This document shows positions 18,296 through 22,690 of a stretch of DNA of 64,000 bases, piece by piece. Origin of the DNA: Vibrio superstes (lineage in GTDB: Bacteria; Pseudomonadota; Gammaproteobacteria; Enterobacterales; Vibrionaceae); assembly GCF_003569005.1 (NCBI RefSeq), contig NZ_BCUR01000001.1:310001-374000 (forward strand), read 5' to 3'. The notes beneath the pieces were generated by a model. The model was not told where the DNA came from. It saw nothing but the letters and a program-made list of their open reading frames with translations, and did not search any database. The number at the start of each line of letters is the position of its first letter. The first letter of the stretch is position 1. Position numbers and translations under genes: made by a program.

Positions 18296-19402
18296 ATGAC
18301 ACAAGTAGATCAAAATCGTTTAGTAGATAACTTCCTACAACTGGTAAAAATTGACAGCGAATCAGGCAACGAAAAAGAAGTCGCCATTGAAATCGAATCT
18401 CAGCTTCAGCAACTAGGCTTTGACGTAGAGCGTCTTGCAGTGCCTGAAACCCTGTCAAATGGCTTTAACATTTACGCTAAATTACCAGGCAAACTAGACG
18501 GTAGCATCGTACTAAGCTGTCACATGGATACGGTAACACCAGGCAACGGCATTGAGCCAGTAATCAAAGACGGCATCATTAGCTCTGCGGGTGACACGAT
18601 TCTTGGTGGTGATGACAAGTCTGGCATTGCTGCAATCATCGAAGCAATCAAAACCCTTCAAGAAAACAACGTTGAACATAAGACCATCGAGATCGCGTTC
18701 ACTGTATTTGAAGAAGGTGGTTTACACGGCTCTAAGCAATTCGATTGCAGCAAGATCGAATCTGAAATGGGTATTGTTTTAGACTCAGGCGGCCCTATCG
18801 GCACCATCATTGCTGTAGCTCCGGGTCAGCAAAACCTTAAAGTAAACATCACAGGTAAACCAGCTCACGCAGGCTTAGCGCCAGAGCAAGGTATCAACGC
18901 CTTAACGGTTGCCTCTGATGCCATTGCCAACATGAACCTGTCTCGTATAGACGAAGAAACCACAGCCAATATCGGTGTTGTTAAAGGTGGCCAAGCGACC
19001 AACATCGTCATGCCAAGCCTGTACATCGAAGCAGAAGCACGCTCTCTTGACGAAGAAAAACTGGCAAAACAAGTGGCTCATATGGTTGAAACCTTTGAAG
19101 CGGCGGCGAACAAACATGGCGCCGAGGTCGATATCGTTTCAACCCGCGCATACAACCCGTTCCAGATCCCTGAATCACACCCTCACATCCAAACGGTAAA
19201 AGAAGTATTCACGCAACTGGACATCGAGCCAATCGTAACCTCTACAGGTGGCGGTAGTGATGCCAATATCTTTGCTGAGAAAGGCCTAACCATCGTTAAC
19301 CTATCTACAGGTATGGCTAAGGTACACACAACTGAAGAGTACATCGCTATCGAAGATATGCGTAAGATTTCTCAGTTCTTGATGAGTTACTTAGCCAAGT
19401 AA
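18296..19402 (+). CDS. M20-family metallopeptidase, peptidase T-like
   Basis: 368 aa cytoplasmic zinc peptidase. Metal-binding and catalytic residues are visible: His76 and Asp78 in SCHMDTV, Asp106 in GGDDKSG, the Glu pair in FEEGG (139-140), Asp163 in LDSGG, and a late His in KVHTTEE. The lid domain (about 175-285) is the usual dimerisation domain. The sequence matches the PepT-like M20 group found in vibrios and bacilli, which cleave tripeptides, rather than DapE or ArgE. A strong terminator follows. Confidence 0.85.
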   Translation: MTQVDQNRLVDNFLQLVKIDSESGNEKEVAIEIESQLQQLGFDVERLAVPETLSNGFNIYAKLPGKLDGSIVLSCHMDTVTPGNGIEPVIKDGIISSAGDTILGGDDKSGIAAIIEAIKTLQENNVEHKTIEIAFTVFEEGGLHGSKQFDCSKIESEMGIVLDSGGPIGTIIAVAPGQQNLKVNITGKPAHAGLAPEQGINALTVASDAIANMNLSRIDEETTANIGVVKGGQATNIVMPSLYIEAEARSLDEEKLAKQVAHMVETFEAAANKHGAEVDIVSTRAYNPFQIPESHPHIQTVKEVFTQLDIEPIVTSTGGGSDANIFAEKGLTIVNLSTGMAKVHTTEEYIAIEDMRKISQFLMSYLAK

Positions 19403-19408
19403 ACTTTT

Positions 19409-19443
19409 AGCTAACCGTTTGAGCTACAAACGGTTAGCTTTAC
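19409..19443 (+). terminator. Terminator after the peptidase gene
   Basis: Perfect 13-bp stem AGCTAACCGTTTG/CAAACGGTTAGCT with loop AGCTA, then TTTA. It begins 7 bp after the stop codon. Confidence 0.7.
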
Positions 19444-19457
19444 TCATCGCCTTCACA

Positions 19458-19761
19458 CGTCATCCGTTCATTTCCACGCACTCCCAGTGGTAATCGAAGG
19501 CATCTGGCCTCTCCTCATAGATACCCGATAAAACACCTCGGGTATGACGGCCTGCAAGCCCAGCAATTCCGATACCTTTCTAATACTTCTATGCTTGTCC
19601 ATATTTAACCCGTCATTCCCGCGCGCTCCTAGTGGGAATCGAAGGCATCAGGTCTCTTCTCATAGATACCCGATATAACATCTCGGGTATGACGGCCTGC
19701 AAGCCCAGCAATTCGAATACCTTTCTAATACTTCTATGCTTGTCCATATTTAACCCGTCAT
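19458..19761. repeat. CGTCAT...ATGACG repeats, left part of array
   Basis: Units begin at 19458, 19611 and 19756 (periods 153 and about 146 bp). Each starts CGTCAT and contains a degenerate CCCACGCGCTCCTAGTGGG hairpin, GAATCGAAGGCATC and a second hairpin ATACCCGA...TCGGGTAT, and ends ATGACG. Between units is a shared spacer running from CCTGCAAGCC to TTGTCCATATTTAACC. The third unit is broken after its first six bases by the IS element and resumes at 21153. Confidence 0.88.
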
Positions 19762-19799
19762 ATATGGACCCACCCAGTTTGCAAGTCATTTTACATTCT

Positions 19800-20030
19800 T
19801 GGTTATTGAGTCATTGTCGTTCATATATTCGGCCTGTTTACTGAGCTCTATCGTGCTCATGGCCTTGATGTAATCTGCACCCAATGCTCTTTATCATTCC
19901 CACGGCTTCTGATGAGCCAATGACGGTGTCAGAGTTTCACTGGGGCGGGATGACCGCTAACCATCGATGTAAAATGTATCGCAACTGACGATGAGTGTTG
20001 TTTAACTGGTTAATTCCCTACTGTTTAGAG
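19800..20030 (-). ncRNA. Candidate bridge/seeker RNA of the IS1111-type element
   Basis: Non-coding segment between the transposase stop and the IS end, read in the transposase direction. It contains CCGTCATT (complement of 19919-19926), a small hairpin GGCT-loop-AGCC (19904-19918), then GTGGGAATGA (complement of 19894-19903). CCGTCATT equals the top strand on the left of the insertion site; GTGGGAATGA equals the bottom strand on the right; they overlap at the AT core. CUCU and AGAG could close the outer stem. This is the two-guide internal loop described for IS110/IS1111 guide RNAs. RNA ends are not determined; ATATATG and AATGA farther along (complements of 19822-19828 and 19811-19815) may be the donor guides. 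Confidence 0.6.
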
Positions 20031-20046
20031 CGTTAGCATTATCAAG

Positions 20047-21066
20047 TTATGCTTCTTTAAGTTGGTACGGTTTGTTGTGTGTAATCACAGCCCAGACAAT
20101 GCGTGCCAACTTATTCGCTAACGCTACACAGGCTTTGTTAAAGCTTTTCTCATGCTTCAGCTTAGTTGCCCAGACGCTCACCTTGTCTTCTTTCCTATCT
20201 GCATATTGGAGTACACTCCTCGCTCCGTGTATCAGAAGCGCTCTGAGTACGACGTTACCTTTCTTGGTGATGCCATACAGTTGAGATTTCCCTCCAGTTG
20301 AGAACTGTCTCGGAACCAGACCACACCAAGCAGAGAAGTGTCGACCACTCTTAAACTGTGTCCCTTTCCCAATGGCTGCATACAACGCTAGCGCGGTGAT
20401 AGGTCCGATACCCACGACACTTTGCGCTATCTGACAGACATAATTTTCTTTAGCAAAAGCCTTTAGCTTGCTCTCGACCTGTTCAATACGGTCGTTTAAG
20501 GACAAGAACTCCTGGTACAGTTCATTGAACAAATCTCTAGCGACCCAGGTCAGTTCGTTACCTGGGTCTTCTAAGAACTCTGGAACGGACCTACGCAAGG
20601 CTGAGATACCTCGATTCATACAGAGCCCATACTCAAGCAGTAATCCTCGTATCTGGTTCATTAGTTGAGTGCGTTGCTTAATCAAGCGTTGCCTAATACG
20701 CAGGTACATTTGAGCGTCTTGTTGGTCAATGGTTTTTATCGGTACAAACGTCATATTGTCACGTTGTGCGGCTTCCGCTATCGCTTCTGCGTCGTTGTAG
20801 TCATTCTTATTTTTACGACGATATGAAGTGACATGTTGCGGAGGGACGAGTTTAACCTCATGCCCAAGCTTGATGAGCTCCCGAGCCAAGTGATTAGAGG
20901 CACCACAGGCTTCAATGGCAATTGTTTGAGGAGCTAACTTAGCAAAGTATGAGAGTGTAGCCGCGCGCTTAAGCTGCTTCTTATATGTGATTTTTCCGCG
21001 TGATGTGACGAACACTGCATGAAAAACATTCTTGGCAATATCTAATCCGACCGTTACATTTGTCAT
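20047..21066 (-). CDS. IS110-family transposase
   Basis: 339 aa DEDD recombinase. The RuvC-like N-terminal domain shows Asp9 (GLDIAK), Glu52 (AIEACG), Asp89 and Asp92 (NDYNDAEA). The C-terminal Tnp_20 domain carries VVGIGPITALAL and AWCGLVPRQFSTGGKS, which holds the probable catalytic serine (Ser256). A coiled-coil lies between (about 180-205). The reading frame is full length with no frameshift. It has short upstream and long downstream non-coding flanks inside the IS, as in the IS1111 group. Confidence 0.95.
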   Translation of the reverse strand: MTNVTVGLDIAKNVFHAVFVTSRGKITYKKQLKRAATLSYFAKLAPQTIAIEACGASNHLARELIKLGHEVKLVPPQHVTSYRRKNKNDYNDAEAIAEAAQRDNMTFVPIKTIDQQDAQMYLRIRQRLIKQRTQLMNQIRGLLLEYGLCMNRGISALRRSVPEFLEDPGNELTWVARDLFNELYQEFLSLNDRIEQVESKLKAFAKENYVCQIAQSVVGIGPITALALYAAIGKGTQFKSGRHFSAWCGLVPRQFSTGGKSQLYGITKKGNVVLRALLIHGARSVLQYADRKEDKVSVWATKLKHEKSFNKACVALANKLARIVWAVITHNKPYQLKEA

Positions 21067-21152
21067 GTGGACCTACCCTTATTTAGATGCTTGTTTGTTC
21101 AACTTCATCTTGGCGCATTGTGACGCCGTGTAAAGGGTGGGTCCATTTCATT

Positions 21153-21637
21153 ATTCCCACACGCTCCTAGCGGGAATCGAAGGCATCAGGTCTCTCCTCA
21201 TAGATACCCGATAAAACACTTCGGGTATGACGATCTGTAAACTGAGTTATCCTGATGCTTAACATGTCATTCCCACGCGCTCTTAGTGGGAATCGAAGGC
21301 ATCTGGTCTCATAGATACCCGATAACACATCTCGGGTATGACGATCTGTAAACCGAGTTATCCTGATGCTTAACCCGTCATTCCCACGCGCTCCTAGTGG
21401 GAATCGAAGGCATCTGGTCTTTCCTCATAGATACCCGATAAAACACCTCGGGTATGACGATCTGTAAACCGAGTTATCCTGATGCTTACCCCGTCATTCC
21501 CACGCGCTCCTAGTGGGAATCGAAGGCATCTGGTCTCTTCTCATAGATACCCGATAACACACCTCGGGTATGACGGTCTGTAAACCGAGTTATCCTGATG
21601 CTTAACATGTCATTCCCACGCGCTCTTAGTGGGAATC
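21153..21637. repeat. CGTCAT...ATGACG repeats, right part of array
   Basis: After the IS the broken unit continues to 21232, then units start at about 21266, 21376, 21492 and 21608 (periods 110-117 bp), the last truncated at about 21637. Each carries the ATACCCGA...TCGGGTAT hairpin and ends ATGACG. The spacer here (GATCTGTAAACCGAGTTATCCTGATGCTTA) differs from that left of the IS, so two array types meet near the insertion point. Confidence 0.88.
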
Positions 21638-21748
21638 TAATGCGAAAACTAGTTGGCTCTGAAAGCTAGAATACTCAGAAAGCAGCCCACGGATATTCAC
21701 ACAATATCGTTTCCCCTACCTTTTATTTCCCTTACAATACAATCATCA

Positions 21749-22690
21749 ATGGACTTGGCTTCAAAAACTAACTTTATGAATTACTTCACCAACTTCCTTA
21801 AGGGAATGGCTATGGGTGCAGCTGACGTTGTTCCCGGTGTTTCTGGCGGTACCATCGCATTCATTACTGGCATCTACGATACCTTGCTAGAGAGTATCCG
21901 CCGTGTAAATCCATCGCTAATTGGCGTGCTTCGTTCAAAAGGACTCAAAGGCGCATTCGACCACATCAATGGCTTCTTCTTACTGTCCCTGTTTGGGGGC
22001 ATTTTTACCAGTATATTGACCCTAGCTAAGCTCATCTCTTGGTTATTAGTTACCCACCCAATTCCACTGTGGTCTTTTTTCTTTGGTCTGATCTTAGTAT
22101 CGGTCTGGCATATCATGCGTCAAATTGAATCTTTTGATCTGATGAAGTGGGTCGGCTTTGCTCTGGGTATTGCACTCGCATTTGCTATTACTGTACTCAA
22201 CCCTTTAAACCTCGAGCCAACGATCATCAACATCGTGCTGTCAGGCTCCATCGCCATCTGTGCAATGATTTTACCGGGAATATCCGGCAGCTTTATTTTG
22301 CTATTGATAGGTATGTACGGTCCGGTTATTGGTGCCGTTAAAGGCTTGGACATTGGATTTCTGATGTTATTTATGAGTGGTTGCTTGTGTGGCTTGCTGA
22401 GCTTTTCACACCTACTGTCATGGCTTCTCAGGCGCTTCAGAGACATTACCCTTATGTTCTTGGTTGGCCTAATGGTGGGCACATTGCCAAAGATTTGGCC
22501 TTGGAAAGAGACGCTTACATGGCGCACTAACTCCAGCGGCGAGCAAGTACCATTACTGCAAGAAAACCTCATGCCTCACAATTTTGAGTCGATTACTGGT
22601 ACACCATCACAAACTGCGATAGCAGTGGTAATGATGTTGGTTGCGATTGGACTAGTATTGGCTTTAGAGAAATTTGCTGAAGACAAATAA
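21749..22690 (+). CDS. popT: DUF368 undecaprenyl-phosphate translocase, PopT-like
   Basis: Polytopic inner-membrane protein; 313 aa from the ATG at 21749 (an ATG at 21776 is also possible, neither has a clear ribosome site). The DUF368 signature is at the N-terminus: FLKGMAMGAADVVPGVSGGT. A related inverted-repeat half, IAICAMILPGISGSFILLL, lies near residues 175-195, reflecting the two-fold pseudo-symmetry of this fold. DUF368 proteins were shown in V. cholerae (VCA0040) and others to recycle C55-phosphate across the membrane for cell-wall synthesis, important at alkaline pH. Its stop codon overlaps the next ATG by one base; it heads a five-gene cluster. Confidence 0.85.
   Translation: MDLASKTNFMNYFTNFLKGMAMGAADVVPGVSGGTIAFITGIYDTLLESIRRVNPSLIGVLRSKGLKGAFDHINGFFLLSLFGGIFTSILTLAKLISWLLVTHPIPLWSFFFGLILVSVWHIMRQIESFDLMKWVGFALGIALAFAITVLNPLNLEPTIINIVLSGSIAICAMILPGISGSFILLLIGMYGPVIGAVKGLDIGFLMLFMSGCLCGLLSFSHLLSWLLRRFRDITLMFLVGLMVGTLPKIWPWKETLTWRTNSSGEQVPLLQENLMPHNFESITGTPSQTAIAVVMMLVAIGLVLALEKFAEDK

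Follow-up and report, generated by a model that had tools for sequence, protein, structure and literature searches.

An IS1111-group insertion sequence of Vibrio superstes with a predicted bridge (seeker) RNA whose guides match its palindromic-repeat target

RNAs encoded downstream of the transposase gene of IS1111 elements (seekRNAs) were shown experimentally in 2024 to guide insertion, ISPa11 being one of the elements described; its RNA was purified together with its transposase, and its target is a repetitive extragenic palindromic (REP) sequence of Pseudomonas aeruginosa (PMC11187229). According to the same description, the match to the top strand of the target lies 5' of the match to the bottom strand in IS1111 seekRNAs. 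Bridge RNAs are reported as shown for IS621 and as predicted for most IS110 and IS1111 elements (PMC11208160), and IS110-family elements that include ISPa11 have been reported to target REP sequences (PMC1525189). The present analysis concerns an IS1111-group insertion sequence in a stretch of 64,000 nucleotides from Vibrio superstes (contig NZ_BCUR01000001.1), here called the window. The anatomy and junctions of the element, the covariation of its RNA structure, the covariation of guides with targets, and relatives in which both have changed make it very probable that it moves by recombination guided by a bridge RNA; the donor guides covary well with the right end and more weakly with the left. 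Transcription, complex formation, the excised circle and the chemistry would be as in the published family. The mechanism itself is already published; this element and its relatives show clearly how guide and target change together.

An intact insertion sequence of 1393 bp occupies positions 19761-21153 of the window on the minus strand. An earlier note on this DNA had recognised an IS1111-type element at 19762-21154; the type is borne out and the position is corrected by one base, a shift within an ambiguous AT core that leaves the length at 1393 bp either way. IS1111 elements have a 3-bp extension at the right end, and the boundaries were set by this extension together with the published 7-bp extension at the left end. 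The latter is described for IS1111 elements in PMC11187229. Both extensions, TAATGAA and ATA, are present in all eight copies of the element in the genome (G000; 4.7 Mb in five contigs), each of exactly 1393 bp and 97-100% alike. Three of these copies are identical over the full 1393 bp at different loci and the remainder differ from the window copy at 3-35 positions, with no difference among the eight inside the RNA core. The subterminal inverted repeats are exact over 12 bp, within the 7-17 bp expected of the group, and the non-coding DNA amounts to 286 bp downstream of the transposase gene against 87 bp upstream. The transposase, whose 339 residues fall within the range of about 330-350 residues of the group, matched PF01548 and PF02371 of Pfam (E 7.9e-21 and 1.5e-21) and scored above the cut-off of NCBIfam NF033542, 'IS110 family RNA-guided transposase' (E 1.1e-102). 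It carries the C-terminal GL-P----S(T)G motif of the IS1111 group as CGLVPRQFSTG at residue 248, and has distant sequence similarity to the structurally solved transposases of IS621 and ISCro4. Its reading frame is open in all eight genome copies, and the window element is intact and probably recently mobile. Of 227 genomes of the genus, five, G000 included, match the element at the DNA level with E 1e-30 or better. In four of the copies (L005-L008), 19 differences from the window copy cluster in one common block, at element positions 168-231 in the transposase gene, which looks as if it came from gene conversion or exchange with a relative.

Read along the transposase strand, the downstream non-coding region contains CCGTCATT, then a GGCT-catcaga-AGCC hairpin, and then GTGGGAATGA. 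The first stretch (guide 1) complements the target's right half and the second (guide 2) is identical to its left half, the order being the one published for IS1111, with the top-strand match 5' of the bottom-strand match. The flanks rejoined in transposase orientation read GTGGGAA^TGACGGGTT, and the window copy fits both strands of this reconstructed target at all 18 scored bases; 5000 dinucleotide shuffles of the non-coding region gave a mean of 11.8 and a maximum of 15, and the opposite strand of the region scored 12. The two target-matching stretches around a hairpin, which the earlier note had read from the letters, are confirmed, both matching the rejoined flanks as it stated. The exact fit is partly luck of the window site, because the other seven copies, with identical guides, score 14-16 of 18, their mismatches lying at +5, +6 or +7, at -6 and, in L005, at -2. 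At -6 only the window copy has the base of the guide (T), the other seven having C, which could form a G-U pair with the guide U. Over positions -5 to +7 the eight copies fit at 9-11 of 12 bases. Constant guides beside differing flanks had been named beforehand as a sign that would speak against guiding: across the eight copies the inner guide passes this check, GGGAATGAC (-5 to +4) being constant in seven and changed once, at -2, in the eighth; positions +5 to +7 vary under a constant guide. The outer bases of guide 1 thus look permissive as judged from these sites.

One insertion point, at the foot of a REP-like palindrome, is common to all eight copies; it reads GGGAA^TGAC, with GGGGA^TGAC in L005. 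The upstream arm of the palindrome matches at 7 of 7 bases in six copies and at 6 of 7 in the window copy (L001) and L007. Among the stretches compared, paralogous uninterrupted sites are 39/40 identical for L003, 38/40 for L005 and 37/40 for the window copy (in the same array), and 30-36 of 40 at best for the other five; they show that insertion neither added nor removed bases, the two-base AT ambiguity aside. The array flanking the window copy (19468-19761 and 21153-21637) consists of 145-bp units (2.0 copies) and 116-bp units (4.2 copies), with REP-like palindromes.

The same relation between guides and targets was followed through the family. The sample started from 156 loci matching the transposase, with L178 added; 118 elements, falling into 43 clusters, were kept under a rule that called for a paired repeat starting ATGG or GTGG, sufficient flank without N, and identity of at least 30%; L087 was excluded as a duplicate of L116, 38 others failed the rule, and some of the 118 elements duplicate a place already fetched. 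Independence does not hold between related clusters, so that z values are descriptive throughout. In a free search for both guides in the 43 clusters, the mean score on the own target was 13.40 against 11.76 under permutation (standard deviation 0.15), a value as high appearing in none of 20000 permutations. The structure-guided alignment and fixed-position tests used 41 rows, namely 40 of the 43 cluster representatives and L116; the three clusters missed by the covariance model described below (L035, L042 and L056) were left out, which favours the signal. In the alignment, the strongest column pairs form two diagonals (z 5.1-9.3), target positions -5 to +1 being identical to RNA positions 58-63 and +2 to +7 complementary to RNA positions 37-32. 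At the 12 fixed positions from -5 to +7, which were chosen on the same data as tested, the own fit was 9.00 of 12 against 3.78 under permutation (standard deviation 0.30, maximum 5.05), again with 0 of 20000 as high. Comparing guide bases with the flanks of each copy, which the earlier note had proposed as a check, thus gives guides that fit their own targets beyond permutation across the 41 elements.

The folding of the region in relatives, proposed likewise, brought out a two-loop structure that covaries. RNAalifold on 10 aligned sequences predicted 25 pairs, 18 of them with compensated double changes; two of the 25 fall in the guides and were excluded from the covariation count. For the 23 remaining pairs 92.0% of cells are paired, against 70.8% in shuffles, and double changes occur in 16. 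Four of five structure measures, pairing and double changes among them, were reached by none of 500 shuffles, and the fifth, further pair types, was 31 against 25.7 and was reached by 14 of 500; the tested structure was derived from the same alignment, which favours it. Six slid controls had 26.1-49.1% of cells paired. The possible CUCU/AGAG stem noted earlier around the guides is part of a longer covarying stem, CCCAGTG..CTCT with AGAG..CATTGGG. The covariance model R1, built from the 10 sequences with the window copy among them, matches the window only once when hits up to E 1 are counted (132 bits, E 3.2e-30), finds the RNA at all eight genome copies, and finds it in 31 of 34 clusters outside the training set. 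A scan of 19000-22000 with Rfam gave nothing above the gathering score and two chance matches (E 3.4 and 7.5). The target-loop reading of an IS1111 bridge RNA, made at the outset from one sequence, is thus supported by structure covariation, guide-target covariation, the changed guides and targets of relatives, and the published strand order. The features and their positions are collected in Table 1.

Table 1. Features of the IS1111-group element and its surroundings in the window (minus sign, reverse strand; bases in guides and stems as RNA)
Feature	Position	Strand	Basis
Whole IS1111-group element	19761..21153	-	eight genome copies of exactly 1393 bp; paralogous uninterrupted sites
Left end extension TAATGAA, 7 bp	21147..21153	-	copy comparison
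Left subterminal inverted repeat ATGGACCCACCC	21135..21146	-	sequence comparison
DEDD transposase, 339 aa; stretches GLDIAK, AIEACG, DYNDAEAI, CGLVPRQFSTG	20047..21066	-	open reading frame and profile matches
Downstream non-coding region, 286 bp	19761..20046	-	3' of transposase gene
Predicted bridge (seeker) RNA core	19815..19958	-	covariance model R1
5' side of target-loop closing stem (CCCAGUG aaa CUCU)	19931..19944	-	covariation
Target guide 1, CCGUCAUU	19919..19926	-	complementary to transposase-sense strand; target +2..+7 covary with RNA 37-32
GGCU-AGCC hairpin between target guides	19904..19918	-	100% of cells paired, 10 sequences
Target guide 2, GUGGGAAUGA	19894..19903	-	identical to transposase-sense strand; target -5..+1 covary with RNA 58-63
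3' side of target-loop closing stem (AGAG CAUUGGG)	19880..19890	-	covariation
Likely donor guide 1, UUACAUC (UUACAU 19868-19873)	19867..19873	-	complementary to left end; +6, +7 covary best
GGCC...GGCC stem with inner GAGC/GCUC hairpin, between donor guides	19831..19864	-	covariation
Donor guide 2, AUAUAUG	19822..19828	-	identical to right end at circle junction; 6-7/7 bases in 40/43 clusters
Right subterminal inverted repeat GGGTGGGTCCAT	19764..19775	-	sequence comparison
Right end extension ATA, 3 bp	19761..19763	-	copy comparison
Tandem array of 145/116-bp units with REP-like palindromes, split by element; target	19468..21637	.	repeat analysis

A small series of relatives (in genomes G083, G014 and G199, beside G000) shows what becomes of the target when the guide changes. 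The single copy found in G083 (L116) has a transposase 90% identical over residues 67-339 (tblastn), with one stop inside the match; it lies at CGGTA^TGACGGT, and its guide 2 is GTCGGTATGA. Over -5 to +7 its target differs from that of the window at -5, -2 and +7 and its guides differ at -5 and -2; both changed guide bases match the target of L116, and the unchanged guide base at +7 also fits the G083 target. On the G083 target the L116 guide fits 12 of 12 bases and the window guide 10; on the window target the two fit 9 and 11, respectively. In G014, L118 lies at CGGGA^TGACGAG with guide 2 TCGGGATGA and fits its own target at 10 of 12 bases and the window target at 8; its transposase and that of L119 are 88% alike, with different guides and different targets. 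The G199 element (L178), 66% identical (tblastn), has the guide 2 of the window and the target GGGAA^TGACGGT, which it fits at 12 of 12. Two further G014 elements, L119 and L120, were observed at AGGAA^TGACCGA and CAGAA^TGACAAT with one common guide, which fits either site at 9 of 12 bases and the window target at 10.

Several results weigh against guiding by this RNA and belong beside those above. In just 17 of 43 rows of the free search, and in 28 of 41 rows at the fixed positions, the own target was not outscored by any other. In the free score some relatives fit the window target better than their own (L116 16 against 15, L178 17 against 15, L119 and L120 16 against 14), which for L116 comes about because positions outside -5 to +7 count in the 18-base score; at the fixed positions L119 fits the window target at 10 and its own at 9, and the sites of L119 and L120 are not accounted for by guide fit alone. 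Every one of the eight genome copies is mismatched at one or more of the outer guide positions (+5 to +7). Off-diagonal column pairs reached z 5.9-6.4 in the same scans as the two diagonals; signals of such size can arise from shared ancestry. As to the RNA, R1 missed three clusters (L035, L042 and L056), the 106-nt core folded alone is no stabler than shuffles (z -0.36), and the whole region folded alone is only moderately stable (z -2.39). The candidate for donor guide 1, considered below, is mismatched at +6 in the window element.

A palindrome at every genome copy might also mean that the transposase protein itself reads the hairpin, the matching non-coding stretches being relics of captured target DNA. 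All eight copies lie in palindromes with a stem of 6/7 or 7/7, as do L116 and L178 (arm 7/7 in both), and the pattern ATTCCCN{4,30}GGGAATGAC accounts for 53 of the 77 occurrences of GGGAATGAC in the genome (22 occurrences for the reversed control of GGGAATGAC, and one for the control of the longer pattern). Given 53 of 77, however, eight of eight would be met by chance with a probability of about 0.05 (hand reckoning), so that the palindrome need not be read. The sites of L118, L119 and L120 lack the stem, with an arm of only 4/7 that 957-988 of 1000 shuffles reach, so that a palindrome is not required in every relative. Transposases 88% alike (L118 and L119) go with different guides and targets, a 42%-identical one in G073 inserts into these repeats too and has the same nonamer in its region as the other guide, and guides covary with targets position by position; reading by the protein is thus very unlikely. 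That the match is due to chance, or that the region merely holds a copy of the repeat, is less credible still and can hardly be entertained: the repeat is abundant nearby, which makes repeat-like letters plausible, but shuffles never exceeded 15 of 18, the two stretches flank a conserved hairpin inside a covarying stem, and relatives have this layout with different letters, which fit different targets. A genuine bridge-RNA element that is now immobile in G000 is unlikely as well, though not to the same degree; the stop inside the transposase match of the G083 relative would agree with it, against three identical copies of 1393 bp at different loci and eight open transposase frames.

Guidance by the bridge RNA, the favoured reading, also involves a donor loop, for which the earlier note had offered AUAUAUG and, with equal reserve, AAUGA. 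The former is supported by covariation and by the 40 of 43 clusters that match at 6-7 of 7 bases; the latter is not, as across 40 clusters it does not covary with the left end. The best right-end match, AUAUAUG or its counterpart, lies 57-72 bases from the element end in 39 of 43 clusters; the counterparts change with the element end (AUGUAGA, ACAGAUG, AUACAU, AUAUAC), and right-end columns -4, -3, -2 and +1 covary with the RNA at z 6.2-8.1. AAUGA, which lies beyond the end of the structure-guided alignment, was tried and rejected. In the anchored test, from which L042, L051 and L061 were dropped as their left ends are probably wrongly set (they were kept in the free search and the unaligned AAUGA test), z ran from -1.4 to 0.6 along the diagonal, and five of 40 clusters had four of five left-end bases there; the highest single column pairs of the stretch reached z 5.3 among 414 tests, without any diagonal. 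The unaligned test gave, on the identical strand, z 2.2 for positions 0 to 8, 0.7 for -2 to 6 and 0.1 for -1 to 7, and on the complementary strand 2.3, 2.5 and 1.8, respectively. UUACAU, which lies between the target loop and the GGCC stem, is a likelier second donor guide than AAUGA, judging from its pairing with the left end: +6, +7 and +8 pair with RNA positions 88, 87 and 86 in 78, 83 and 82% of elements (z 6.2, 7.6 and 4.6), +8 having better-scoring partners elsewhere. The assignment of the left-end donor guide is the least certain part, because related clusters have much the same ends.

A long imperfect inverted repeat, about 19996-19951 with 19813-19768, was also seen; it encloses nearly the whole RNA core, extends into the right subterminal repeat, and has several pairs with double changes among five relatives. 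It is possibly the stem of a longer precursor RNA. R1 has a second match on the opposite strand near the first in two elements (L093 2773-2920 and L178 3104-3245), these being neighbouring inverted elements or remnants.

In outline, the downstream non-coding region would yield a two-loop RNA. The first loop would hold the target, its right half paired on one strand to CCGUCAUU and its left half on the opposite strand to GUGGGAAUGA, so that the two guides meet at the core. The second would hold the junction of the excised circle, where UUACAU would pair with the left end of the element and AUAUAUG with the right end. The RNA-bound DEDD transposase would then recombine circle and target with no bases added or removed. 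The guide spells the foot of a dispersed palindromic (REP-like) repeat, and for this reason the element would collect there.

The repeats are called REP-like only, since no match to PF01797 (Y1_Tnp) was found in G000 at E 0.001; an origin of the G000 repeats from a REP-associated tyrosine transposase is by the same search unsupported. Separately, G199 has 27 Y1_Tnp matches, of which 17 span 118 or more of the 121 positions, and G000 none. CCGGTATGACG occurs 17 times in G083 (control 1) and not at all in G000 (control 4), and CGGGAATGACG 14 times in G000 (control 1) and nine times in G083 (control 4), so that G083 contains both repeat types. The upstream arm matches at 7/7 in 12, 6/7 in three and 4/7 in two of the 17 CCGGTATGACG sites of G083, at 7/7 in 12 and 6/7 in one of the CGGGAATGACG sites of G000 (13 of 14 fetched), and at 7/7 in four, 6/7 in two and 5/7 in one of the CGGGAATGACG sites of G083 (seven of nine fetched).

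A distant, 42%-identical element with at least 14 copies in G073 meets these repeats from the other side. In all seven copies fetched (L124-L130) the right flank starts with CATTCCCAC, and the non-coding region holds GTGGGAATG, which complements it exactly and stands one base ahead of a GGCA/TGCC hairpin, in the place of guide 1. The nonamer of the window guide thus stands in the opposite guide arm, and the same repeats are entered in the reverse orientation. It may be, and we hold this only tentatively, with slightly less than even confidence, that the drift of guides tracks the host, the guide arms changing base by base to spell the abundant palindromic repeat of each host, with the G073 element having converged through the same nonamer in the opposite arm and inserting the other way round. 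The presence in G083 of the repeat type of the window as well weighs against this. Guides that follow different host repeats between sister species would be the boldest reading of these comparisons and not a demonstrated result. No paper on guides following host repeats was found among titles and the beginnings of abstracts, a scope outside which lay most subscription papers and all preprints. If the idea is true, dispersed repeats are a host-specific landing site that shapes guide evolution, and the window element with its relatives is a testable case of it. The target guides of an uncharacterised IS1111 element can in any case be read from sequence and checked against relatives, and the natural series from G000, G083, G014 and G199 sets base-by-base changes of guide against those of target, which is useful for the study of mismatch tolerance.

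Among the known systems, the best-scoring plasmid transposase among the matches listed belongs to an IS110-family element of Vibrio parahaemolyticus plasmids (NZ_CP068626), and is only 49% identical. IS621 of the IS110 group (PMC11208160; PDB 8wt6) resembles the window element, as far as its description goes, in the two-loop target and donor bridge RNA, the REP target and a homologous transposase (E 5.1e-07); it differs in that its RNA lies upstream of the transposase gene, its guide order is reversed, and the subterminal inverted repeats of its group are only 2-3 bp long. With the RNA downstream and repeats of 12 bp, the window element falls outside the IS110 group of the IS621 type. ISEc11 and ISXne4 of the IS1111 group are described (PMC11187229) as a natural redirection through changed guide arms over a conserved stem, as in the relatives from G083 and G014, whereas the target of the window element is a dispersed palindromic repeat. 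ISPa11, also of the IS1111 group and compared here by description, shares with the window element an RNA downstream of the transposase gene, the same guide order and a REP target, and differs from it in having another host, P. aeruginosa, and another REP.
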